From Kribbella turkmenica (lineage in GTDB: Bacteria; Actinomycetota; Actinomycetes; Propionibacteriales; Kribbellaceae), in assembly GCF_004348725.1 (NCBI RefSeq), contig NZ_SMKR01000016.1, positions 1-60,483 on the forward strand: 60,483 nucleotides of DNA. Direction: 5' to 3'. A program made the position numbers and the translations under genes. Positions 1 to 9,997 of this stretch are shown here, in pieces; the stretch's first letter is position 1; the number at the start of each line of letters is the position of its first letter. Under the pieces are notes generated by a model that was given only the letters and a program-made list of their open reading frames with translations, made no database searches and was not told the origin of the DNA.

Positions 1-978
1 CTCGGGGCTGCGGGCGGTGGCGGGCTGGTCACCGGTGGGTTCGATGACGATCTCGACGTCGTCGGACATGGAGACGACACCGGCGACGGACCCGATGGAC
101 GCTGCCCGGCCGGCGGCGCGACGGGCGAGTGCTTCGGCCTCGGCCGCCGTACGACCGACGCCGAAGCCGACGTACGCCGTGTCGTGACGGGACGCGAGGT
201 GGTCGAGCAGGGGCATGTGGGTGAACTGCTCGGTGGCCTGCTCGAGGACGCCGCGGGTGGTGACGACCAGGTGGCGCCCGTCGGGGAGGGCGGCCAGGCT
301 GGCGCCGAGCGTGATGAGGTCGGCGGCGAGGGCGTCGTCGGGTTCGGGGAGGTCGATGATGCCGAGCGCGACCTGGGCGTCGCCGACGTGCTGGCCGGTC
401 GTGGTCAGGACCAGGGCCTGCAGCGTGGAGCGGATCGAGTAGCGCGACGGCGCGAGCCGGACCGACGGCATCTCGTTCTCGAGCAGGTGGAAGGCCGAGC
501 CGAGGCAGCTGATCGCGACCTTGGTGTCGTGCTTGTCCCGCGCGAACCGGTGGAACGCGACGATGTCGTCCGAGGTGAGCCCGGGGCGGTACGGGAGTAC
601 GTGGATCTGGTCGGTCGGCATCTTGGCCTCGATCAGCGTCTCCAGGACCTCACTGCGGCGCAGCGTGTCGATCGAGAACTGGGTGACGTTGTGGCCGAGC
701 CGGAGGAGTTCGACGAGTGCGCGCAGCAGGGTGGCACCGTCGTACGAGACGTACATCGCCGGGCGGTCGATCACCCCGGCCTCGGTGGCGATGGTGTACG
801 GGACGACGCCGGTGAACAGGATCGCGTCGACCTTCTCGTGGGACTGCTCGACCACCTCGACCGCTTCGGTCTCATGGTGGTACGGCAGCGGGAGCAGGGT
901 CGTGCCGCTCGGCGGACCGACCGCGACGACGCGGTGGACCAGGTCCTCCGGGCCGATGACACCGACTGTCAGGGCCAT
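1..978 (-). CDS. Possible sensor/transcriptional regulator, C-terminus cut by window edge
   Basis: An open frame of 326 codons runs off the left edge with no stop. The N-terminal ~170 residues look like an alpha/beta ligand-binding domain (begins MALTVGVIGPEDLVHRVV; contains DAILFTGVVPYT), reminiscent of PrpR-N or Asp/Glu-racemase folds. Residues ~200-310 (VALGIIDLPEPDDA... YVGFGVGRTAAEAEALA) resemble the GGDEF-like domain found in some regulators. A C-terminal helix-turn-helix would lie outside the window. It follows the aldolase and enolase genes on the same strand, so it is probably in their operon and is a candidate regulator of it. ATG at 978 was chosen; it abuts the stop of a tiny upstream ORF. 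The family assignment is inference. Confidence 0.55.
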   Translation of the reverse strand, partial: MALTVGVIGPEDLVHRVVAVGPPSGTTLLPLPYHHETEAVEVVEQSHEKVDAILFTGVVPYTIATEAGVIDRPAMYVSYDGATLLRALVELLRLGHNVTQFSIDTLRRSEVLETLIEAKMPTDQIHVLPYRPGLTSDDIVAFHRFARDKHDTKVAISCLGSAFHLLENEMPSVRLAPSRYSIRSTLQALVLTTTGQHVGDAQVALGIIDLPEPDDALAADLITLGASLAALPDGRHLVVTTRGVLEQATEQFTHMPLLDHLASRHDTAYVGFGVGRTAAEAEALARRAAGRAASIGSVAGVVSMSDDVEIVIEPTGDQPATARSPE

Positions 979-1005
979 TCAGACCACCGCCGGTTCGATC
1001 TGCAC
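979..1005 (-). other. Tiny upstream ORF abutting the next start (TGAATG)
   Basis: GTG at 1005 opens eight codons (MQIEPAVV) ended by TGA directly next to the ATG of the downstream gene and in the same frame. A good ribosome-binding site, AAGGAG (1010-1015), lies 4 bases before the GTG; the downstream ATG has none of its own. It may be a leader for coupled translation, or the downstream protein may originally have started at the GTG with a Trp codon where TGA now stands. Confidence 0.4.
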
Positions 1006-1036
1006 GGCACTCCTTCGACGACTTCTGGTCGGGCCC

Positions 1037-1999
1037 TTAACTCGCAGGATAGTGGCTGAGCTCCTCGAGACAGCGGACGACGAGCTCTCGCTCCGGGGTG
1101 GGCAGGTCCGGCCCGTACGGATCGTGGGCCGCGTCCTCGGGGAGCAGGGCCTCCCACACCGCGGCCCAGAGCATGCGCTGCACGTAGCCCTCGATCGGTG
1201 CGTAGAAAGTCGCCGCGGCGAAGCGGTCCAGCCGGTCTGAAGCTGTCAGGAAGCCACTGTGGTCACCTGAGGACCAAGTGCGCAGTACTGCGGCCGAGAG
1301 CTCGACCTGTGCCGCGGCAATCCCGACCAGAGCGGTGTCAGCGCCCCACATGAACGACGGGCCGAACATACGGTCCTCACCGGTGATCAGAAGCTTGCCG
1401 GTGCCGCGGCCGGCCCAGATAGCGTCCTGACACCCGATGGCGCGGTCCAGTGTGGCCGTCTTGACCCCGAGCATGGCGTCCAGGCTGAGCAGGTCGCGGA
1501 TGAGTTCCGGCAGGTACGGGTATCCGCCAGCCTCGCCGTGCAGATAGAAGCCGACCAGCGGCAGCCCACTCTCGGTCGCCACCCGCTCGTGCAGTGCAAC
1601 AGCCTGCGCATGGCCGTCAGGCTCGTCTCCAAGGGCCGCTAGCGGGTAGACCATCACCGCGTCAGCTCCACCCGCCGCAGCCTGCAGCGCCATCGCCACA
1701 GTCGCGTCTGCGGCCTTCTGCAGCGTGTGTGCGGGCTGAGCCCTGGGTACGCCGACTCCAGCCACGATCGGCGCGTCCGTCGCCTGCCGCCAGGTCTCCA
1801 GCACCTTGGACCGGTCTGCCGGCGACAGGTACAGCCCGCGGCCGGTGTGGGCCCACACCGCGACCCCACCGATCGGCTCGGTCGCGATGCGGCCGGCGTA
1901 CGCGGACAAGGCGTCGTACGCGACCACACCGTCGTTGTCCATCGGAGTGACGACGGCAGGGAGCAGGGTGCCGCGGAGTTGCTCGACGAGTGCGTGCAT
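1037..1999 (-). CDS. Dihydrodipicolinate synthase/N-acetylneuraminate lyase family aldolase
   Basis: 320 residues, the usual length of the family. Class I aldolases of this TIM-barrel family form a Schiff base between a lysine and a keto acid. Here the candidate lysine is K180 in MLGVKTATLD, with Y152 in LVGFYLHGE as the usual proton-relay tyrosine and an AHTGRG segment (~50-55) in the substrate-loop position. True DapA would sit with lysine-biosynthesis genes; this one follows the enolase-superfamily gene with an 8-base gap, so a catabolic role (cleaving or dehydrating a 2-keto-3-deoxy acid or similar) is more likely. Start ATG at 1999. Expression is probably driven from the palindrome-bearing promoter at 3180-3197. 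The substrate is unknown. Confidence 0.8.
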   Translation of the reverse strand: MHALVEQLRGTLLPAVVTPMDNDGVVAYDALSAYAGRIATEPIGGVAVWAHTGRGLYLSPADRSKVLETWRQATDAPIVAGVGVPRAQPAHTLQKAADATVAMALQAAAGGADAVMVYPLAALGDEPDGHAQAVALHERVATESGLPLVGFYLHGEAGGYPYLPELIRDLLSLDAMLGVKTATLDRAIGCQDAIWAGRGTGKLLITGEDRMFGPSFMWGADTALVGIAAAQVELSAAVLRTWSSGDHSGFLTASDRLDRFAAATFYAPIEGYVQRMLWAAVWEALLPEDAAHDPYGPDLPTPERELVVRCLEELSHYPAS

Positions 2000-2007
2000 C
2001 GGACCTC

Positions 2008-3141
2008 TCAGACGTCGTGGCCGAGGCCTGGGCTCGTGGGTACGTCGATCCAGCCGTCGCAGTCGGCGAACACGGTCGGGGCCAGTGGGTCCTCGTGCAC
2101 CATCAACGGCCCGACCAGGTCGGCAGCCACGGTGGCACCGGGTACGGCGGCGGCCAGGTGGACGGCGGCCAGGGTGGCCACGCCCAGCTCGGGCATCGAG
2201 CCTACCTTCACCGCCAGGCCCGCGGCCTCGGCTACGTTGGCGATCTGCAGGGCTCTGTGCAGTCCACCGACCTTGAGGATCTTGATGTTCAGCACGTCGG
2301 CCGCACCGCGCCGGGCGATCTCCAGGGCATCGTGCAGCGAGTGCATGCTCTCGTCGACCATCAGCCGGACGTCGAGACGCTCACGCAGCCGGACGAGCCC
2401 GGCCAGGTCCCACCGCGGCAGCGGCTGCTCCAGCAAACTCAGCCCGGCGTCAGCCATCTTGGCCAGGTACGGCAGCGCTGTGGCCGCGTCGTACCCCTCG
2501 TTGGCGTCCAGACACAGCTCGGCGTCAGCGGGGATGACCGCACGGACTGCTCGGACCAGCTCGAGGTCTTTGGCCGGCTCGTGCCCGCCCTTCACCTTGA
2601 GGTGGCGGAAGCCCTTGTCGGCGTACTCGGCGGCCTCGGCGGCCATCTCGTCGAGGGTGCCGAGCCCGACCACCCAGGTGGTCTGCACGCGGTCGCGGAT
2701 GCTGCCGCCCAGCAGCACGTGCACCGGCCAGCCGCTCACCCGGCCGGCCAGGTCGTACAGGGCGATGTCCAGGCCGGACTTGGCCACGTGCTGGCCGCGC
2801 AGTACGGAGTCCATCACCAGGTGGGCTCCGGCCCGGTCCAGCGGGTCGTGCCCGATGAGTGCCGGAGCGAGATGCTCCTCGATTGCGGCGGTGACCCCAG
2901 CCAGCGTCTCCCCGGTGTACGCCGTCATCGGCGACGTCTCGCCGATGCCGATCGCGCCGTCGGCGGTGTGCACCTCGACCAGCAGGCTGACGAGCTCGGT
3001 GCTGATCCCGCTGCTGATCTGGAACGGACGCCGGTACGGCGCACTGACCACGCGGGTCTTGACCGCACTGATCGGCCCCGAGGTGGTCGACGCCGGGTCG
3101 GTGCGGGCCGGCAACCCGGCCGGATGGGGTACGACGCTCAA
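2008..3141 (-). CDS. Enolase-superfamily enzyme, muconate-lactonizing (MLE) subgroup
   Basis: 377 residues from the TTG chosen at 3141. The enzyme would abstract an alpha-proton next to a carboxylate using metal-bound enolate chemistry. Visible residues: KxK at K182/K184 (HLKVKGG), metal ligands D212 (DANEG), E238 (LLEQPL) and D263 (MVDES), and a second lysine in NIKILKVGG (K287/K290). Lysines on both faces fit the MLE subgroup (cycloisomerases, dipeptide or proline epimerases, dehydratases), not mandelate racemase proper. TTG 3141 is favoured because GGAGGAG (3148-3154) lies 6 bases before it. The longest frame would start at a TTG (3189) inside the operator palindrome, which is unlikely. 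First gene of an operon with the aldolase. Confidence 0.8.
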   Translation of the reverse strand: MSVVPHPAGLPARTDPASTTSGPISAVKTRVVSAPYRRPFQISSGISTELVSLLVEVHTADGAIGIGETSPMTAYTGETLAGVTAAIEEHLAPALIGHDPLDRAGAHLVMDSVLRGQHVAKSGLDIALYDLAGRVSGWPVHVLLGGSIRDRVQTTWVVGLGTLDEMAAEAAEYADKGFRHLKVKGGHEPAKDLELVRAVRAVIPADAELCLDANEGYDAATALPYLAKMADAGLSLLEQPLPRWDLAGLVRLRERLDVRLMVDESMHSLHDALEIARRGAADVLNIKILKVGGLHRALQIANVAEAAGLAVKVGSMPELGVATLAAVHLAAAVPGATVAADLVGPLMVHEDPLAPTVFADCDGWIDVPTSPGLGHDV

Positions 3142-3179
3142 ATCCGGCTCCTCCGGGTCGCAATCTGGCGCGAAAGGAC

Positions 3180-3197
3180 TTACGGTCAAGACCGTAA
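3180..3197. promoter_or_regulatory. Regulon operator A, perfect 18-bp palindrome
   Basis: TTACGGTC-AA-GACCGTAA is perfectly symmetrical with 8-bp arms. It lies in the divergent promoter between the enolase/aldolase operon (start 3141) and the luciferase-like gene (start 3237), and could control both. Near-copies occur at 7507-7524 and 9600-9617. Confidence 0.75.
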
Positions 3198-3236
3198 ATA
3201 CCGTGAGCGCACTCTGTCAACGGAAGGTGGCACCTG

Positions 3237-4202
3237 ATGCGGCTGGGGCTCTATCTCAACCTCTACGGCAGGCCCGACGAGCGGCCGCGGCTCGAGGACG
3301 CGGTCGAGCAGGCGCGGCTCGCCGAGCAGGCCGGGTTCGAGTGGATCGTGCTCGGCGAACGGCACCTGCACCGGCCCGGGTACCACGAGATCCTCACCTC
3401 GCTGACCTACCTGGCCGCCAGGACCGATCGCATCGGGCTGGCCACGTCGGGCATCGTGGCGCCGCTCTACGATCCCGTCGTACTGGCTGAGACGCTGGCG
3501 CACATCGACGTACTGTCGGGTGGGCGGCTGACCGCGGGGTTCGTGCTCGGGTATCGGCCGGAGGAGTTCGCGCTGTACGGCGTGACGCAGGCCGAGCGGG
3601 TCGCGCGGTTCGAGGAGTGCCTCACGATCCTGACCCGGCTCTGGACGTCGGACGAGGTCACGTACGACGGGAAGTTCACCAGCATCCGCGAGGCGTTCCT
3701 GTCGCTGCGTCCGGTGCAAACCCCCCGTCCGCGGCTGTGGAACGGTGGGCGGGTGTCGGCTGTGCTCGAGCGGACCGCGCGGATGTGTGACGGGTGGACG
3801 ACGTCGTTCAACGAACTCGACGCCGATCTGCCGGCGAAGATCGCGGAGTATCGGTCGTATCCGGCCGGGGAGGTTTCGCTGGGCCGCGACGTGATCCTGT
3901 GCCGGGAGGGGTTCTGCGCTCCGACGGCGCAGGACGCCCGCCGGGTGCTGGAGGAGCCGCTGCGGGCGTTGTACGACGCCTACACCGGCTGGAAACGTAC
4001 GTCGGCGGATGCGAGCCGGTACACGCAGGGCTGGGACGACATCGCGGCCCGCAGCGTGATCGGGTCCCCGGGCGAGTGCGCCGAGCGGCTCGCGCAGTAC
4101 GAGGAGATGGGTGCTGACGGCATCATCCTGCGGATGCAACCGCCGGGGTTGTCGCAGGCTGACGCGCTGCGGTCGATCGAGGCGTTCGGGAACTTGGTCT
4201 GA
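3237..4202 (+). CDS. LLM-class (luciferase-like) flavin- or F420-dependent oxidoreductase
   Basis: 321 residues with the bacterial-luciferase TIM barrel: MRLGLYLNLYG at the N-terminus, a WIVLGERHLH segment (~39-48) and LTAGFVLGYRPEEF (~98-111). Such proteins oxidise small organic substrates with reduced FMN or are F420-dependent; which applies cannot be told here. GGAAGGTGG precedes the ATG at good spacing. It is transcribed away from the enolase/aldolase operon from a shared promoter region holding the perfect palindrome, which suggests a role in the same pathway. Its end faces the ABC permease gene, with strong hairpins between them. Confidence 0.8.
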   Translation: MRLGLYLNLYGRPDERPRLEDAVEQARLAEQAGFEWIVLGERHLHRPGYHEILTSLTYLAARTDRIGLATSGIVAPLYDPVVLAETLAHIDVLSGGRLTAGFVLGYRPEEFALYGVTQAERVARFEECLTILTRLWTSDEVTYDGKFTSIREAFLSLRPVQTPRPRLWNGGRVSAVLERTARMCDGWTTSFNELDADLPAKIAEYRSYPAGEVSLGRDVILCREGFCAPTAQDARRVLEEPLRALYDAYTGWKRTSADASRYTQGWDDIAARSVIGSPGECAERLAQYEEMGADGIILRMQPPGLSQADALRSIEAFGNLV

Positions 4203-4214
4203 CCCACTCGTGCT

Positions 4215-4327
4215 GCGTGGGCGCCCGGAGCGGCGGTCGCCCGTCGTCGGGGGCTTGCCCACGCCGTGGGGGCCGTGAACAGGTTATTCCGTGTTCAAGC
4301 CCTCCGTCGTCTGTCCAAGCCCCCGAC
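4215..4327. terminator. Convergent terminator region with overlapping inverted repeats
   Basis: Three inverted repeats fill the 146-base gap between converging genes: GCGTGGGC/GCCCACGC (4215-4222 with 4257-4264), GTCGGGGGCTTG/CAAGCCCCCGAC (4246-4257 with 4316-4327), and TGAACA/TGTTCA around 4276-4297. The first two share base 4257 and would compete. There is no T-run. A bidirectional terminator is the simplest reading. Confidence 0.55.
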
Positions 4328-4348
4328 ACCGGATGCGGCCACGCTCGC

Positions 4349-5221
4349 TCAGGCCTTCAACCCACTCATGGCGATGCTGTCGGTCAGATACCGCTGCAGC
4401 AACCCGAAGACCAGCAGGCTCGGAACGACGGTGATCGTCGCGCCGGCCATGATCTGGTTGATGGGGACCGCCTGGGTCTGCAGGGTGGCGAGGCCGACCG
4501 TCAGCGTCTGCATCTCGCCGGACTGGCCGATGACGAGGGGCCAGAGGAAGTCGTTCCAGTGCCAGAGGAAGACGAAGATCCCGAGGGTGGCCAGCGCCGG
4601 GCGGATGAGCGGCAGCACGATCTGGGTGAAGATCCGCCACTCGGGGGCGCCGTCGATCTCGGCGGCTTCGAAGAGTTCGTCGGGGAGTTGGCTGATGAAC
4701 TGGCGCAGCAGGAAGACGCTCTGCGAGTTCGCCAGTGTGGGCACGATCAGTCCCCAGTAGCTGTCGACCCAGTCGAGTCTGGAGACCAGGATGTACGACG
4801 GGATCAGCGTCGCCTGGAACGGGACCATCAGCGTGGCCAGGAACGCCCAGAACATGATCTCCCGGCCCGGGAACCGCTTCTTCGCGAACGCGTAGCCCGC
4901 CATCGCCGCGAACAGCAGGACGAAGACGACCGACACCAGCGAGTACAGCAGCGAGTTGATCGTCCAGCGGGGGATGTCCGAACTGGACAGCACCCGGCTG
5001 AAGTTCTCGGAGGTGAAGCGGGTCGGGTCGAGCGCGTCCGGGAAGGTCTGGCCGCTGGGCGGTGCGAACGCGACCAGGACCATCGCTGCGAACGGCACGA
5101 TGGTGACGATCGCGGTCAGCGTCAGCAGCGTCGGCAGTGTCAGCCGGGCGGCCGGTCGGCTCTCGGTCCTCGGCGGGGGTGCCGTGTCCTGGGCGCGTGG
5201 TCGTTCGAGCAGGTTCACCAT
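4349..5221 (-). CDS. Carbohydrate ABC transporter permease (MalG/UgpE type)
   Basis: 290 residues, about six membrane helices, and the EAA loop EAAEIDGAPEWRIF followed by LPLIRPAL, which docks the ATPase. It forms the inner-membrane channel with the upstream permease. ATG at 5221 overlaps the stop of that gene (TGATG), so translation is coupled; a longer upstream frame only shadows the neighbour. Third and last gene of a binding protein-permease-permease operon. No ATPase gene is present, so it probably uses a shared MsiK-type ATPase encoded elsewhere. Confidence 0.9.
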   Translation of the reverse strand: MVNLLERPRAQDTAPPPRTESRPAARLTLPTLLTLTAIVTIVPFAAMVLVAFAPPSGQTFPDALDPTRFTSENFSRVLSSSDIPRWTINSLLYSLVSVVFVLLFAAMAGYAFAKKRFPGREIMFWAFLATLMVPFQATLIPSYILVSRLDWVDSYWGLIVPTLANSQSVFLLRQFISQLPDELFEAAEIDGAPEWRIFTQIVLPLIRPALATLGIFVFLWHWNDFLWPLVIGQSGEMQTLTVGLATLQTQAVPINQIMAGATITVVPSLLVFGLLQRYLTDSIAMSGLKA

Positions 5222-6192
5222 CAGTCGTCCCTCCCGACCAGCCGTCGCTGCACGAGCGAGACGACGAGCACGATCGCGAACAGCACCAGGCCGATCGCGC
5301 TGGCGTAGCCGAAGTCGAAGTACTTGAAGCCGCTGTCGTACAGGAAGTACACGAGTGAGTAGCTCGAGCGCACCGGTCCGCCGCCGGTCATCACGTACAT
5401 CGCGTCGAAGACCTGGAACGCGCCGATGGTCTCGATCACGAGGACGAAGAACAGTACCGGGCGCAGCTGCGGCAGGGTGATGTAGCGGAACCGCTGCCAG
5501 GTGCCGGCGCCGTCGATCATCGCGGCCTCCAGGTACGAGCGCGGGACCGCCTGCAACCCGGCGAGCAAAATCAGCATTGAGTAGCCGAAGCCCTTCCACG
5601 CCGACGTCACCGCGATCGACGGGAGCACCAGGCCGGACTCGGCGAGGAAGTCGACCGGACCGATGGACACCAGCCCGAGGACGGCGTTGATCAGGCCGTC
5701 CTGGGCGTCGTAGATCCACTTCCAGATCACCGCGGCCAGCACGATGCTGGTCACGTACGGCAGGAAGAACACACCGCGGAAGAAGCCGCGTCCCCAGACG
5801 ACCTGGTGCAGCAGTACGGCGGTGCCGAGGGACAGCAGGACCGTCAGCGGGACGAAGACCGCGGTGTAGGTGAGCGTGACCACCAGGGCCTGGTGGAACA
5901 GGCCGTCCTGCAGCAGCCGGGTGTAATTGTCGACAGCAACGAAATCCCAGCGGCCGCTCAGCCGGTAGTCGGTGAGCGACAGCAGGACCGCACCGACCAC
6001 CGGCAGGAACCGGAACGCCAGGAACAGCAGGAGCATCGGGGCGACGAACAGCAGGCCGACCCAGGGACGGCGGAGCGAGCGCCGCCGTCCTGGGGACGAA
6101 GCGCGGTGGGACTGGGAGGTGGGCGCCGGTCGGCCGGCCACGGGCCCCGCCCGGCCCGTGGCCGTGTCCGGCGTCTGCCGGGCGTCGGTCAA
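5221..6192 (-). CDS. Carbohydrate ABC transporter permease (MalF/UgpA type)
   Basis: 323 residues. A proline- and arginine-rich cytoplasmic N-terminus of ~40 residues is followed by six membrane helices and the EAA loop LEAAMIDGAGTWQRF. The stop of the binding-protein gene overlaps its TTG start (TTGA), so it is likely translated by coupling; there is no clear ribosome-binding site, and a GTG ~16 codons further in is an alternative. It pairs with the following permease. Substrate class (a sugar or glycoside) is inferred from the family only. Confidence 0.88.
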   Translation of the reverse strand: MTDARQTPDTATGRAGPVAGRPAPTSQSHRASSPGRRRSLRRPWVGLLFVAPMLLLFLAFRFLPVVGAVLLSLTDYRLSGRWDFVAVDNYTRLLQDGLFHQALVVTLTYTAVFVPLTVLLSLGTAVLLHQVVWGRGFFRGVFFLPYVTSIVLAAVIWKWIYDAQDGLINAVLGLVSIGPVDFLAESGLVLPSIAVTSAWKGFGYSMLILLAGLQAVPRSYLEAAMIDGAGTWQRFRYITLPQLRPVLFFVLVIETIGAFQVFDAMYVMTGGGPVRSSYSLVYFLYDSGFKYFDFGYASAIGLVLFAIVLVVSLVQRRLVGRDD

Positions 6193-7457
6193 CGCTGTCT
6201 CGACAGGAGGTCGTTGGCCTGCTTCGCGGCGTCGTCGAGCGCCTGCTGCGGTGCCTTCTTGCCGGTCAGCACGGCCTGGAGCTCGACACTCAGCAGCGAC
6301 ATCACCTGACGGGCGGACGCGTTCGGCTCACCCGGTACGGCGTACTTGAGGGCGTCGGCGAACTGCTGCCCGGCCGGGTCGGCGGCCGGCGTCTGCGCGT
6401 CGGTGCGCGGGGTGAAGAAACCCGAGGCCTTGCTCAGACCCTCGACCTGGGCCGGCTGGATCATGAAGGACAGGAACTTCTTCGCCTCGTCGACGTTCTC
6501 CGAGGCGGCGTTCACCGCGAGCCCGCCGGGCAGGCCGAAGCTGACCTGCTTCGCACCGGTGAGCGGCTTCCCGACGACGACGTTGGCGGCCCCCCAGGTC
6601 GCCGCCACGGTCTTGGCGTCGGCCGGCGTACTGGTGATCGCCATCGCCACCTGGCCCTTGCCGAACGGCTGGTCGGTCACCAGGTTGGCGTTGGTCAGTG
6701 CACTCCTCGGGATCGCGCCGGCGTCGTACAGGCTCTTCAGGAAGGTCAGCGCCTCCAGCCCCGGCGCCTGGTTGAAGGCGACCGACTTGCCGTCGTCGCT
6801 GAACACCTTGCCGCCGGCCTGCCACAGCAACGGGTAGAAGTTCAGGTTGAGCGTCGCCTCCGGGGAGGCGGAGTAGTCCAGCGTCGAGAAGCCGGCCGCC
6901 TTGATCTTCGGTGCCGCGGCCTTGACCTCGTCCCAGGTCTCCGGCGGCTTGCTGATGCCCGCCTTGTCCAGGATCGCCTGGTTGTACATGGTCGTGGTGA
7001 CGGTGTGGTAGATCGGCGCCGCGTAGACCTTGCCGTCCACGGTCAGGCCGGGCAGCGCGGCCGGCAGGAACTTGTCCTTCTCGGGCTCGACGACGTCGTC
7101 GACCGGCTCGAACGAACCGTTCCGGACGTACTGCGGCAACTGGTCGGGGATCTGCAGGACGACGTCCGGCCCCTTCTTGCCGGCGAACGCGGCCGCGAGC
7201 TTCTCGTCCCGCTTGTCCCACGTCTGCGCCTCGATCTTGAGGTCGATGTCGCCGTTGGCGGCCTCGAAGTCCGTCTCGACCTTCTTCCAGTACGCCGTAC
7301 TGGCGGCCTGGTCGCCGATCACCGGATACATCCACAGGGTGACGGACTTCTTGGCCCCCGAGTCGGAGCCGCCCGAGTCGTCGCCGCACGAACTGAGAGC
7401 AGCGGCCAGCACTAGGGCCGTGAGTGGTGCCGCGATGCGGCGGACGGTGGAATTCAT
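6189..7457 (-). CDS. ABC transporter substrate-binding lipoprotein, family 1 (sugar type)
   Basis: 422 residues from ATG 7457. The N-terminus (MNSTVRRIAAPLTALVL, then a lipobox LSSC) is a lipoprotein signal; a Gly/Ser/Asp-rich linker follows, and the rest is the two-lobed binding-protein fold typical of sugar ABC systems (WMYPVIGDQ at the start, WDEVKAAAPKIKAAG in the middle). The frame extends upstream to 7502, but the lipoprotein signal favours 7457. First gene of the importer operon. An operator-like palindrome at 7507-7524 lies 50 bases upstream and matches the site in front of the enolase/aldolase genes, so the imported compound is probably that pathway's substrate. Confidence 0.9.
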   Translation of the reverse strand: MNSTVRRIAAPLTALVLAAALSSCGDDSGGSDSGAKKSVTLWMYPVIGDQAASTAYWKKVETDFEAANGDIDLKIEAQTWDKRDEKLAAAFAGKKGPDVVLQIPDQLPQYVRNGSFEPVDDVVEPEKDKFLPAALPGLTVDGKVYAAPIYHTVTTTMYNQAILDKAGISKPPETWDEVKAAAPKIKAAGFSTLDYSASPEATLNLNFYPLLWQAGGKVFSDDGKSVAFNQAPGLEALTFLKSLYDAGAIPRSALTNANLVTDQPFGKGQVAMAITSTPADAKTVAATWGAANVVVGKPLTGAKQVSFGLPGGLAVNAASENVDEAKKFLSFMIQPAQVEGLSKASGFFTPRTDAQTPAADPAGQQFADALKYAVPGEPNASARQVMSLLSVELQAVLTGKKAPQQALDDAAKQANDLLSRQR

Positions 7458-7506
7458 CGCACCCCCTGGGTGTCCGGAAGTCAGGGCCGGAAGTAGAAAC
7501 ACCGAA

Positions 7507-7524
7507 TAACGGTCAGGACCGAAA
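7507..7524. promoter_or_regulatory. Regulon operator B
   Basis: TAACGGTC-AG-GACCGAAA matches operator A (3180-3197) in 14 of 16 arm positions, with the same 2-base centre. It lies just upstream of the sugar-binding-protein gene and 24 bases beyond the stop of the next gene. Confidence 0.7.
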
Positions 7525-7547
7525 GTAGCTGGGTGGAATTTCGGCTG

Positions 7548-9575
7548 TCAACGGCTGATATCAACTCGGAACAGCTCGGCGCCGTGCGTCAGCAGCAGCT
7601 GGCGATCGTTCCGGACGCCGAGCCGGCGGTGCGCCTTGTCGACGAGCAGCGCCGGCGCCTTGCCCGGTGCGATCCGGAAGACCTTGTTCAGATCGATGCT
7701 CACGTAGACCGCGTCCCTGGTCGCGACGATGTCCCCGCTGGAGGTCGTCGTCCCGAGGACGTAGGACGTGACCACTGTCCCGCGCCGGGGGTTCACCGCG
7801 AAGACCGTCTTGCCGGCCACGCCCCAGAGCAGGCCGTCCGGGCCGAAGGTCACCGACGAGACCGTGATCGCGCCGGGCACGGGCACGGTCTCCCACAGCT
7901 TGCGGGATCGCCTGACGTCCCAGGCGAAGACGGTGCCCTCGGTCCGGGTCGGCGGCGTGGTGGCGAGCCCGCCGACGATCGACGTACCGCCGTACACGAT
8001 GCCCCCGCGGGCGGTCAGGCCGAAGACGCTCTCGTCCTGGACCACGTTGCGGAACTTCTGCGAGGTACCGGTCTTCGGGTCGTGGATGACGAGCGCCCCG
8101 CCGAGCCGGTCGCCGTCGGGCACGGTGCCGACCGCGAGCTTGCCGTCCACCTCGGCGAGCGCCCGGGCGCGGGTCTGGAAGATGTCCGGCTTGAGATTCA
8201 GCACCTGCCGGGGGTTGTCCGGGGTGCCGGGCGGTCCGGGTGAGTACTCCGGGCTGCTCCACGGCCTGGTCAGGTCGTAGGTGTAGACCCGGGCGTCGGG
8301 GTAGGCGCCGATCCAGAGGTTGCCGTCCTTGCCCTCCAGCAGCGCCTCGGTCTGGGAGAACCGGTGGAAGGTGGCCGCGCCGGTGTCCGGGTTCACCACC
8401 GACACCCCGCCGTTCAGGAAGCCGCCGGCGTAGACGTTGTCCTTGCCGCCGGCCACGGACAGGATCTCGATCGGCTCGCGCCGGACCGAGGTCTGGAAGA
8501 TCTCGGACTCGCCGGTCTGCGGGTTGTAGCGGAACTCCTCACCCCGCCAGAGCGTGCCGACGATGCTCTTGCCCGGGTAGTCGGGCAGGTCGAGCTCGGC
8601 CCAGCCGATCGAGCGGGTGTTCTGGATCCGGCCGGTGAAGGTCAGGCCGGTGCCGGTGAGCGTCTTGGCCGCCGGGTCGTACCTCTTCAGCTCGCCGGCC
8701 TGGATCAGGTAGATCTCGCCGTTGTCGCCGACCGGGGAGACGTCCAGGCCGTGGGCGTTCGGGATCTCGTCCACCCAGGTCCGGGAGGCGATGTCCCAGA
8801 CGTACAGCGGGCCGGGGAAGGCGGTGCTGATCCGGGCGTAGACGCGACCGGCGCGCGTGTTCAGGTCGTAGACGGTCTTGTCGGACGGGTCGCCGAGCCC
8901 CGGCGGCGCCGGCAGCTCGGTGACCGCGCCGGACGCCACGTCCAGCTCGAGCACATGGGCGTCGGGCATGGTGCCGCCGTAGATCTTGCCGTTCCAGTAG
9001 TCGATGCTCTTGACGTACGTCTGGCCGGCCTTGAGCTGGCCGTAGTCGCGGACCGCGCCGGTCGCGTGGTCGTACCGGAACACCTTGCCGTTCGGGTAGG
9101 TGCCGCCGTACACGTTGCCTCGCTCGTCGGTGGTGATCCGCTGAATGAAGGTCTCGGTCGCGATCGGGCGGCCGAGGTCTTCGACGGTGTTCCCCGATCC
9201 CGGCTTCCACCGGTACAGGTGACCGTTGTTGTACGTGCCGGTGTAGATCGTGCCGTCGGGTGCCGCGGCCACGGCGTAGCTGCCGCCGGCGCCGGGGAGC
9301 GGCGCGGACACCAGCGGCGTCCCGGTGACGGGGTCGATGGCGTTCAGGTACGCCGGGTCGCTGGTCGAGACGTTCCAGATCGCCGTCTTGCCGTTCGGCC
9401 CGGGCGCGACGGTGCCGCCGATCAGCAGTACGTCGGACAGCGGCGTACCGAGAGAGGTGACGGTCGCGGTCGGCGGGCCGGCCGGGGCGGACGGTCCGGT
9501 GCCGGCGGGGGTGGTCAGCGTCGTAACGAGAAGGGCGGCGAGTGTCACCGCGATGAGCGAGCGGGCTGATCGCAT
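7548..9575 (-). CDS. Large secreted repeat protein, probable beta-propeller
   Basis: 675 residues from ATG 9575, chosen for GGAGGA 5-6 bases upstream; an in-frame ATG at 9599 touches the operator. A Sec signal peptide (MRSARSLIAVTLAALLV) is followed by recurring blade-like motifs such as IYTGTYNNGHLYRW, VYGGTYPNGKVFRYD, IYGGTMPDAHVLELD and LWIGAYPDARVYTYD, the spacing expected of a beta-propeller (PQQ/kelch/SMP-30 style). No catalytic motif is recognised. The third regulon palindrome lies 25 bases upstream of the start, so it is probably co-expressed with the importer and enzymes, perhaps binding or processing the substrate outside the cell. Confidence 0.75.
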   Translation of the reverse strand: MRSARSLIAVTLAALLVTTLTTPAGTGPSAPAGPPTATVTSLGTPLSDVLLIGGTVAPGPNGKTAIWNVSTSDPAYLNAIDPVTGTPLVSAPLPGAGGSYAVAAAPDGTIYTGTYNNGHLYRWKPGSGNTVEDLGRPIATETFIQRITTDERGNVYGGTYPNGKVFRYDHATGAVRDYGQLKAGQTYVKSIDYWNGKIYGGTMPDAHVLELDVASGAVTELPAPPGLGDPSDKTVYDLNTRAGRVYARISTAFPGPLYVWDIASRTWVDEIPNAHGLDVSPVGDNGEIYLIQAGELKRYDPAAKTLTGTGLTFTGRIQNTRSIGWAELDLPDYPGKSIVGTLWRGEEFRYNPQTGESEIFQTSVRREPIEILSVAGGKDNVYAGGFLNGGVSVVNPDTGAATFHRFSQTEALLEGKDGNLWIGAYPDARVYTYDLTRPWSSPEYSPGPPGTPDNPRQVLNLKPDIFQTRARALAEVDGKLAVGTVPDGDRLGGALVIHDPKTGTSQKFRNVVQDESVFGLTARGGIVYGGTSIVGGLATTPPTRTEGTVFAWDVRRSRKLWETVPVPGAITVSSVTFGPDGLLWGVAGKTVFAVNPRRGTVVTSYVLGTTTSSGDIVATRDAVYVSIDLNKVFRIAPGKAPALLVDKAHRRLGVRNDRQLLLTHGAELFRVDISR

Positions 9576-9599
9576 TGCGGTCCTCCGGTTGACGACCAT

Positions 9600-9617
9600 T
9601 TACGGTCCTGTCCGAAA
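9600..9617. promoter_or_regulatory. Regulon operator C
   Basis: TTACGGTC-CT-GTCCGAAA: the left arm is identical to operator A, the right arm differs at two of eight positions. It lies 25 bases upstream of the secreted repeat-protein start, in the same position relative to the gene as the other two sites. Confidence 0.65.
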
Positions 9618-9997
9618 ATAATCCTTCGGCCCGTGGTGAAGTCAACCGCTCGGACACAATTGCCTGTTGTGGCAGCTCGTCATCCGTTTCGGGCTCGGCC
9701 GTTAAGCGGGTGGTACCCGGGTGAGCAGCCTCTCGACAGCTCGCGGGTGGCGGCGAAGTAGCTGTTCTCGCGATGCAGGGCCCGGTGGAACGCCTCCAGT
9801 TCGGCGGCCGGGATGGCGTGCGAGAACGTGCTGATCTCGGAAGCTCCCGTCAGCCCGGCCACGAGCGCGGCGTACCGCCGTACCGCCGTCACCGCGGTCG
9901 GCTATGGGCTGTTCGGGCCGGCGTTCGCGCCCGGCGTGATCTGGTTCTTCGGGAGCGGGCTGATGACGAGGTGTCGGCAATCGGTTGCCCGGGTGAG
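9618..9997. other. Gap of 380 bases with at most one doubtful small ORF
   Basis: Between operator C and the cold-shock gene no established gene is seen. The only candidate is the minus-strand frame listed at 9680-9892. No strong hairpin or repeat was noticed. Confidence 0.5.
9680..9892 (-). CDS. Doubtful 70-codon ORF or gene remnant
   Basis: It opens at GTG 9892 after an in-frame TAG. The first ~50 codons have the GC-rich third positions of real genes here (text such as FSHAIPAAELEAFHRALHREN), while the tail after RELSRG does not. There is no ribosome-binding site and no family match that I recognise. It could be a small gene or the end of a decayed one. Confidence 0.3.
   Translation of the reverse strand: MTAVRRYAALVAGLTGASEISTFSHAIPAAELEAFHRALHRENSYFAATRELSRGCSPGYHPLNGRARNG

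Follow-up and report, generated by a model that had tools for sequence, protein, structure and literature searches.

A conserved palindrome, a probable operator, and its likely repressor, REG, in a predicted uptake and breakdown regulon of Kribbella turkmenica

Repressors acting through an operator on a set of catabolic genes are a known kind of system. Non-phosphorylative sugar-acid pathways bring together a dehydrogenase, a lactonase, an enolase-type dehydratase and a DapA-family aldolase, and the described regulators closest to the one considered here are the PrpR/NtrC-type activators and the DasR/NagR regulators. We explored a 60,483-base stretch of Kribbella turkmenica DNA (contig NZ_SMKR01000016.1, from position 1; hereafter the window), in which an 18-bp palindrome, TTACGGTC-NN-GACCGTAA (written TTACGGTCNNGACCGTAA), stands before genes for enzymes, an importer and a propeller-repeat protein, and we analysed computationally the motif and how well it is conserved, how it co-occurs with the regulator REG, the promoter geometry and the predicted fold of REG. 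Taken together, these data make it likely that the palindrome is the operator of REG, acting as a repressor of this uptake and breakdown regulon. The domain combination of REG and the motif both appear new: titles and abstract openings from a search reaching few subscription journals held no paper on the motif, the regulator or the propeller family, the NN form of the motif did not occur in the accessible portions of the papers listed by the motif literature search, and within that reach the regulon stands as undescribed.

The original prediction had placed three palindromic sites in the window, and allowing up to three mismatches we found exactly those three matches (O1–O3, Table 1), compared with a mean of 0.16 in shuffled versions of the window, none of 100 of which reached three. 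It would have been refuted by a motif common genome-wide, which was not the case. In the own genome (7.45 Mb, 351 contigs), searched with the pattern read backwards as the control that we used throughout the motif counts, there were only five places with up to two mismatches vs none for the control, three of the five being O1–O3, and 20 places vs 6 with up to three mismatches. The fourth of the five (C328:9556) precedes by 36 bp the gene of a 788-aa protein paralogous to the propeller in the window, and the fifth (C243:27887), 17–18 bp upstream of a biotin-synthase-like gene, was set aside as probably a chance match. A chance origin of the palindrome as a whole was rejected, both the window shuffles and the genome-wide reversed pattern giving fewer matches than observed. 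The palindrome is, on these sequence comparisons, a predicted conserved operator.

Conservation at orthologous genes, counted gene by gene in the window and 20 mapped Kribbella loci, pointed the same way and bore out the expectation that the motif would be kept upstream of orthologues. A perfect O1 was present at the MLE/LLM genes in 21/21 loci, and a site with up to three mismatches preceded the gene for the solute-binding protein (SBP) in all 20 loci that have it and the propeller gene in all 19. Arms were more alike than flanks at O1 (1.00 identical, flanks 0.64 and 0.74), before the SBP (0.98, flanks 0.84 on the promoter side and 0.61) and before the propeller (0.97, flanks 0.62 and 0.56), a contrast that is partly built in because the sites were picked by motif match. 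Fourteen of the 21 loci have a site with up to three mismatches before REG itself, which suggests that REG may be autoregulated in many Kribbella loci, but not in the window.

The site also follows the regulator from genome to genome. A REG orthologue (at least 83%) was found in 30 of 38 Kribbella genomes; among the others, G003 has a best relative at 49%, G010 and G032 have only relatives at 27–28%, and five have no relative at E ≤ 0.001. The perfect site was present in 30/30 genomes with the orthologue vs 0/8 without (p = 2.6e-8, own genome excluded). Sites with up to two mismatches numbered 185 vs 10 for the control in the 30 genomes that have either REG or the 49% relative (own genome again excluded), and 0, 0, 2, 0, 0, 3 and 1 in the seven other Kribbella genomes. 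We then drew 394 genomes from the class Actinomycetes, with cuts of at most one mismatch for the site and E ≤ 1e-40 for the REG family: 23 had the site, 18 had REG and 16 had both. Without the own genome, the site occurred in 15/17 REG genomes vs 7/376 others (p = 4.7e-20), and REG was present in 8/8 genomes with a perfect site. The two REG genomes that missed the site cut carry 2-mismatch sites about 2.1 kb from REG, so that all 18 REG genomes have a site with up to two mismatches within about 22 kb. Since 12 of these 18 belong to one genus, the genus-level figure (site in 5/5 genera with REG vs 6/132 without, p = 1.2e-6) is the safer one.

Named REG relatives gave 53 loci, 34 from Kribbella (including one record labelled Streptomyces sp. 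SID13031, probably wrongly) and 19 from other genera (Actinomadura, Streptomyces, Micromonospora, Rugosimonospora, Virgisporangium, Jiangella, Occultella and Sinosporangium). The 19 loci outside Kribbella (370 kb) contained 22 sites with up to two mismatches, in 15 of the 19, and none of the reversed pattern; genera in which the motif reappears include Actinomadura, Streptomyces, Micromonospora and Sinosporangium, in line with the original prediction. Three loci (L151, L157 and L161) had only 3-mismatch or weaker sites, and L159 had none up to four mismatches. A helix reading RTARR-L-RLE is common to REG and its relatives at 43% or more, the exception being the REG of L159 (GSARR). L159 is also the only one of the 19 loci to lack a site at up to four mismatches, although this is one instance only. 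Distant members (about 27–28%) have 2-mismatch sites within about 9–13 kb in G002, G010, G021 and G032; in the first three of these genomes the gene next to the site belongs to one SBP family, of which the G010 copy matches SBP_bac_5 (Pfam).

Promoter geometry argues for repression. O1–O3 sit over the -10/start region of three minus-strand promoters, and at the propeller promoter a -10-like hexamer ends at 9618, abutting O3; any protein occupying the site would therefore cover both the -10 and the start region. One correction to the original account concerns O3, which ends one base ahead of the in-frame propeller ATG at 9599; the ATG at 9575 is the likelier start, favoured by a GGAGG at 9586–9582. 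Among 127 site–gene pairs, many of them drawn from related genomes, 71 have a TTGACA-like box (up to one mismatch) ahead of the operator, vs 5.6% of shuffled upstream regions, and in all 71 the spacing from box to operator is 16, 17, 21, 22 or 23 nt. From these data we infer a one-component repressor, encoded downstream of MLE and DapA. It would bind as a dimer, each half-site (TTACGGTC and GACCGTAA) being recognised by one winged helix, and when bound it would keep RNA polymerase from transcribing the enzyme operon, the LLM gene, the importer operon and the genes for the putatively secreted propellers. An intermediate of the pathway, bound by the PrpR-like sensor, would release REG from the operator, and the controlled genes would form a system for uptake and breakdown.

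The original prediction had matched the operator to no known regulator and had missed the likely regulator gene at 1–978 (minus strand). This fragment of REG, cut by the contig end, has no Pfam or NCBIfam match, and a winged-helix end at the end of contig C176 is 94% identical over 69 residues to the REG of Kribbella genome G036. Relatives in Kribbella are 404–410 aa long, with a full-length representative of 407 aa. A structure model built from 43 sequences (pLDDT 85.8; an 8-sequence model with pLDDT 59.8 was not used) predicts a sensor at the N-terminus and, from about residue 328 to 407, a winged helix at the C-terminus. Residues 1–198 of the model match PrpR/NtrC-type sensors (PDB 2pju and 2q5c; Z 17.7–18.0, 181–182 aligned residues, rmsd 2.4–2.7), and the middle, about 200–315, gives a weaker match to nucleotide-cyclase/Cmr2-type palm folds (1y10, Z 8.7; 9x25, Z 9.8). 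LacI/PBP-like folds, also listed at Z about 9, were taken as common topology. Where a GGDEF signature would be expected, the sequence seems to be PDGRH, and the middle domain is therefore probably not catalytic. No Pfam family for the sensor appeared among 25 of the 32 families for the 43 members, and no AAA+ family appeared there or among the 18 Pfam families listed for P0001 (E ≤ 1), nor a UTRA domain among the latter. A PDB sequence search with a single REG gave no useful match; the profile search gave 38 weak ones, mostly winged-helix regulators and ribosomal protein eS25 (best E 2e-4), with one cyclase-like match (E 0.05). No REG relative was confirmed in viral contigs.

Several findings weigh against REG as the repressor of one regulon through this site. 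The set of target genes varies among clades. Sites fall inside predicted genes at L221, L226, L230, L231, L097 and L108, and others stand before miaA and, at L098 and L106, before FemAB and epoxide-hydrolase genes. Seven of the 21 Kribbella loci, including the window, have no site with up to three mismatches before REG, four of the 19 loci from other genera have none with up to two (one of these on a short contig), and the own genome's REG2 (C284) has none with up to three in the 14 kb examined. Of the 127 pairs, 56 lack a -35-like box; O1 on its LLM side and the propeller on C328 are among them. Moreover, the co-occurrence figures treat related genomes as independent, and seven genomes of the class draw have a site with at most one mismatch and no REG at E ≤ 1e-40. 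These seven would suit a palindrome bound by a factor encoded elsewhere, for example of the GntR/HutC, DasR/NagR kind, with REG merely a co-inherited neighbour. We regard this as unlikely, since the 18-bp site tracks REG across the 394 genomes and its extended arms (TTAC/GTAA) and variable centre are unlike those of dre sites. A DasR/dre identity of the sites was rejected: the window has about as many dre-like matches as chance would give (3 found vs 1.2 expected), and these are positioned elsewhere. In favour of such a factor are also the GGTC-NN-GACC core common to dre sites, the string GGTCTAGACC occurring in DasR/NagR papers (PMC4333415 among them), and a citrate-synthase-like protein with an HTH_17 domain in the Micromonospora locus L154; among the part of the neighbouring open reading frames that was scanned, no other cross-genus conserved regulator was recognised.

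REG might instead bind the sites and activate transcription, as would befit a sensor resembling that of PrpR, an activator. Bacterial activators seldom act downstream of or over the -10, and this is where the sites lie at the three minus-strand window promoters and at others; together with the lack of an AAA+ family among those listed for REG, this makes activation improbable. Finally, the sites could have no regulatory role and simply persist from a shared ancestor or from duplication of a block. The Kribbella clusters are indeed alike in gene order, with proteins about 68–94% identical to those of the window, but arms exceed flanks at O1–O3, even if partly by construction, and sites are also seen at genes of unrelated kinds (GH123-like, SBP, lone propellers) as well as in the diverged clusters of other genera, so that we give this explanation very little credence. 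Repression by REG through the palindrome accordingly remains our preferred explanation.

Table 1 Features of the window and the separate winged-helix end of REG
Feature	Coordinates	Strand	Remark
REG, first 326 residues (PrpR-like sensor and cyclase/GGDEF-like domain)	1–978	-	gene cut by contig end
REG winged-helix end	contig C176, 6781–6987	-	at contig end
Degenerate site TTCTGGTCGGGCCCTTAA	1023–1040	.	4 mismatches; precedes REG
DapA-like (DHDPS family) enzyme	1037–1999	-	Pfam DHDPS above cut-off
Enolase-superfamily, MLE-like enzyme	2008–3189	-	MR_MLE match
Putative operator O1	3180–3197	.	perfect palindrome TTACGGTCAAGACCGTAA, between divergent MLE and LLM genes
-35 box TTGACA, MLE-DapA-regulator operon	3215–3220	-	17 nt before O1
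LLM-class (F420/FMN-type) oxidoreductase	3237–4202	+	Bac_luciferase match
ABC importer permease B	4349–5221	-	BPD_transp_1
ABC importer permease A	5221–6192	-	BPD_transp_1
Solute-binding protein, carbohydrate type	6189–7457	-	SBP_bac_1/8; lipobox by eye
Putative operator O2	7507–7524	.	2 mismatches; promoter of importer (SBP) operon
-35 box TTGACA, SBP operon	7546–7551	-	21 nt before O2
Propeller-repeat protein PROP1, signal-like N-terminus	7548–9599	-	propeller repeat matches
Putative operator O3	9600–9617	.	2 mismatches; promoter of propeller gene
-35 box TTGACT, propeller gene	9640–9645	-	22 nt before O3

The kinds of genes in the cluster were as originally predicted, with matches to MR_MLE, DHDPS, Bac_luciferase (LLM), SBP_bac_8/1, two BPD_transp_1 permeases and propeller repeats. 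The KxK motif, the D/E/D metal ligands and the second Lys of MLE align with 4m0x, 3jva, 2p88 and 1nu5; MLE reaches the cut-off of none of the 19 NCBIfam families listed for it. Its true start is in doubt, since the annotated TTG (3189) falls within O1. The DapA-like enzyme keeps the Schiff-base lysine position (GVK aligned) in a family-typical barrel, and at the place of the catalytic Tyr of the DapA triad the alignment has a Phe, followed directly by a Tyr. SBP_bac_1/8 together with the two BPD_transp_1 permeases identify a carbohydrate ABC importer, and no importer ATPase was present among the eight window genes scanned. Judged by eye from their N-termini, the SBP is probably a lipoprotein and the propeller probably secreted. 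Searched as an alignment, the propeller family resembles the double propellers found in two-component sensor kinases (3ott, E 4e-13), and two of its 22 members carry CBM_4_9.

Across the 20 mapped Kribbella loci, MLE, DapA and LLM were present in all 20, the importer in 19, the propeller in 18, and a DegT aminotransferase with amidohydrolase-2-like enzymes in 6. Outside Kribbella, genes were counted in the 17 loci with a REG2-type regulator (L159 and L213 excluded; some contigs are short): MLE and LLM were absent, a DegT was present in 15, amidohydrolase-2-like genes in 13, the importer in 13, DapA in 12, a second DapA type in 13 and a short-chain dehydrogenase/reductase (SDR) in 12. By map reading, 13 of 20 further Kribbella site regions have a propeller, an SBP, a GH123-like or a 524-aa protein beside the site; at L223 and L227 stand a 444-aa gene, with no Pfam match in the scanned L227 copy, and an alcohol-dehydrogenase (ADH)-like gene, L222 has no gene start there, and at L221, L226, L230 and L231 the site falls within a predicted gene. 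A separate set of site regions was similarly mixed, with propellers, SBPs and a GH123-like gene alongside miaA, FemAB, epoxide hydrolase and intragenic sites. On the gene content, the regulon would thus comprise the enolase-superfamily enzyme, the DapA-like aldolase, the LLM oxidoreductase, a sugar-type ABC importer and putatively secreted propellers and, elsewhere, also the DegT aminotransferase and GH123-like proteins. A catabolic reading of this set is plausible, and the pathway probably imports and degrades a sugar or glycan fragment that is oxidised or amino-modified. The wider gene set is consistent with the original proposal of one catabolic pathway for a carbohydrate or carboxylated compound, which we still infer rather than observe.

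Some individual loci were also of note. A DegT aminotransferase and amidohydrolase-2-like gene are divergent from REG, with a site between, at L088:2796-4740, and REG2 adjoins a DegT aminotransferase and two propeller genes at L204 (C284, 1–14000). GH123-like proteins stand behind an operator-like site in several Kribbella genomes (L096, L217, L232 and, by similarity, L220), and a 523/524-aa protein without Pfam match lies behind 1-mismatch sites at L093:3393-4967 and L233:4134-5705. Sites with one or two mismatches precede miaA (IPP transferase) in two Kribbella genomes, G007 and G008 (L103 and L109), and one miaA-upstream site sequence recurs in G028 and G031.

A more tentative extension, which we put forward as possible rather than probable, is that REG founds an undescribed family of Actinomycetes repressors with one conserved operator, commanding an undescribed glycan route for amino or oxidised sugars in which the propellers would be extracellular enzymes or glycan-binding proteins. 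Operator, candidate regulator and target genes are given here together for a family whose sensor has no listed Pfam family. The motif can serve as a probe, since its sites point to further genes likely to belong to this pathway, such as those for GH123-like proteins and for secreted propellers standing alone, and REG could serve as a biosensor for the pathway substrate.

Compared with known systems, REG shares the predicted PrpR-type sensor fold of its residues 1–198 with PrpR/NtrC-type regulators, but the AAA+/sigma-54 module of these sigma-54 activators is not listed for REG, in which the sensor is followed instead by a cyclase/GGDEF-like region and, at the C-terminus, a winged helix. With DasR/NagR (GntR/HutC) and their dre sites it has in common a winged helix, a sugar-uptake regulon and the GGTC-NN-GACC core; in contrast, its DNA-binding domain is C-terminal, not N-terminal with a C-terminal UTRA domain, which is not listed for it, and its operator has other arms and a variable centre. 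The enzymes resemble in class those of the non-phosphorylative sugar-acid pathways (oxidoreductases, amidohydrolase-2, enolase superfamily, DHDPS family), whereas the MLE of the window has an MLE-type KxK, unlike a typical sugar-acid dehydratase, and a DegT aminotransferase and propellers are added in this regulon.

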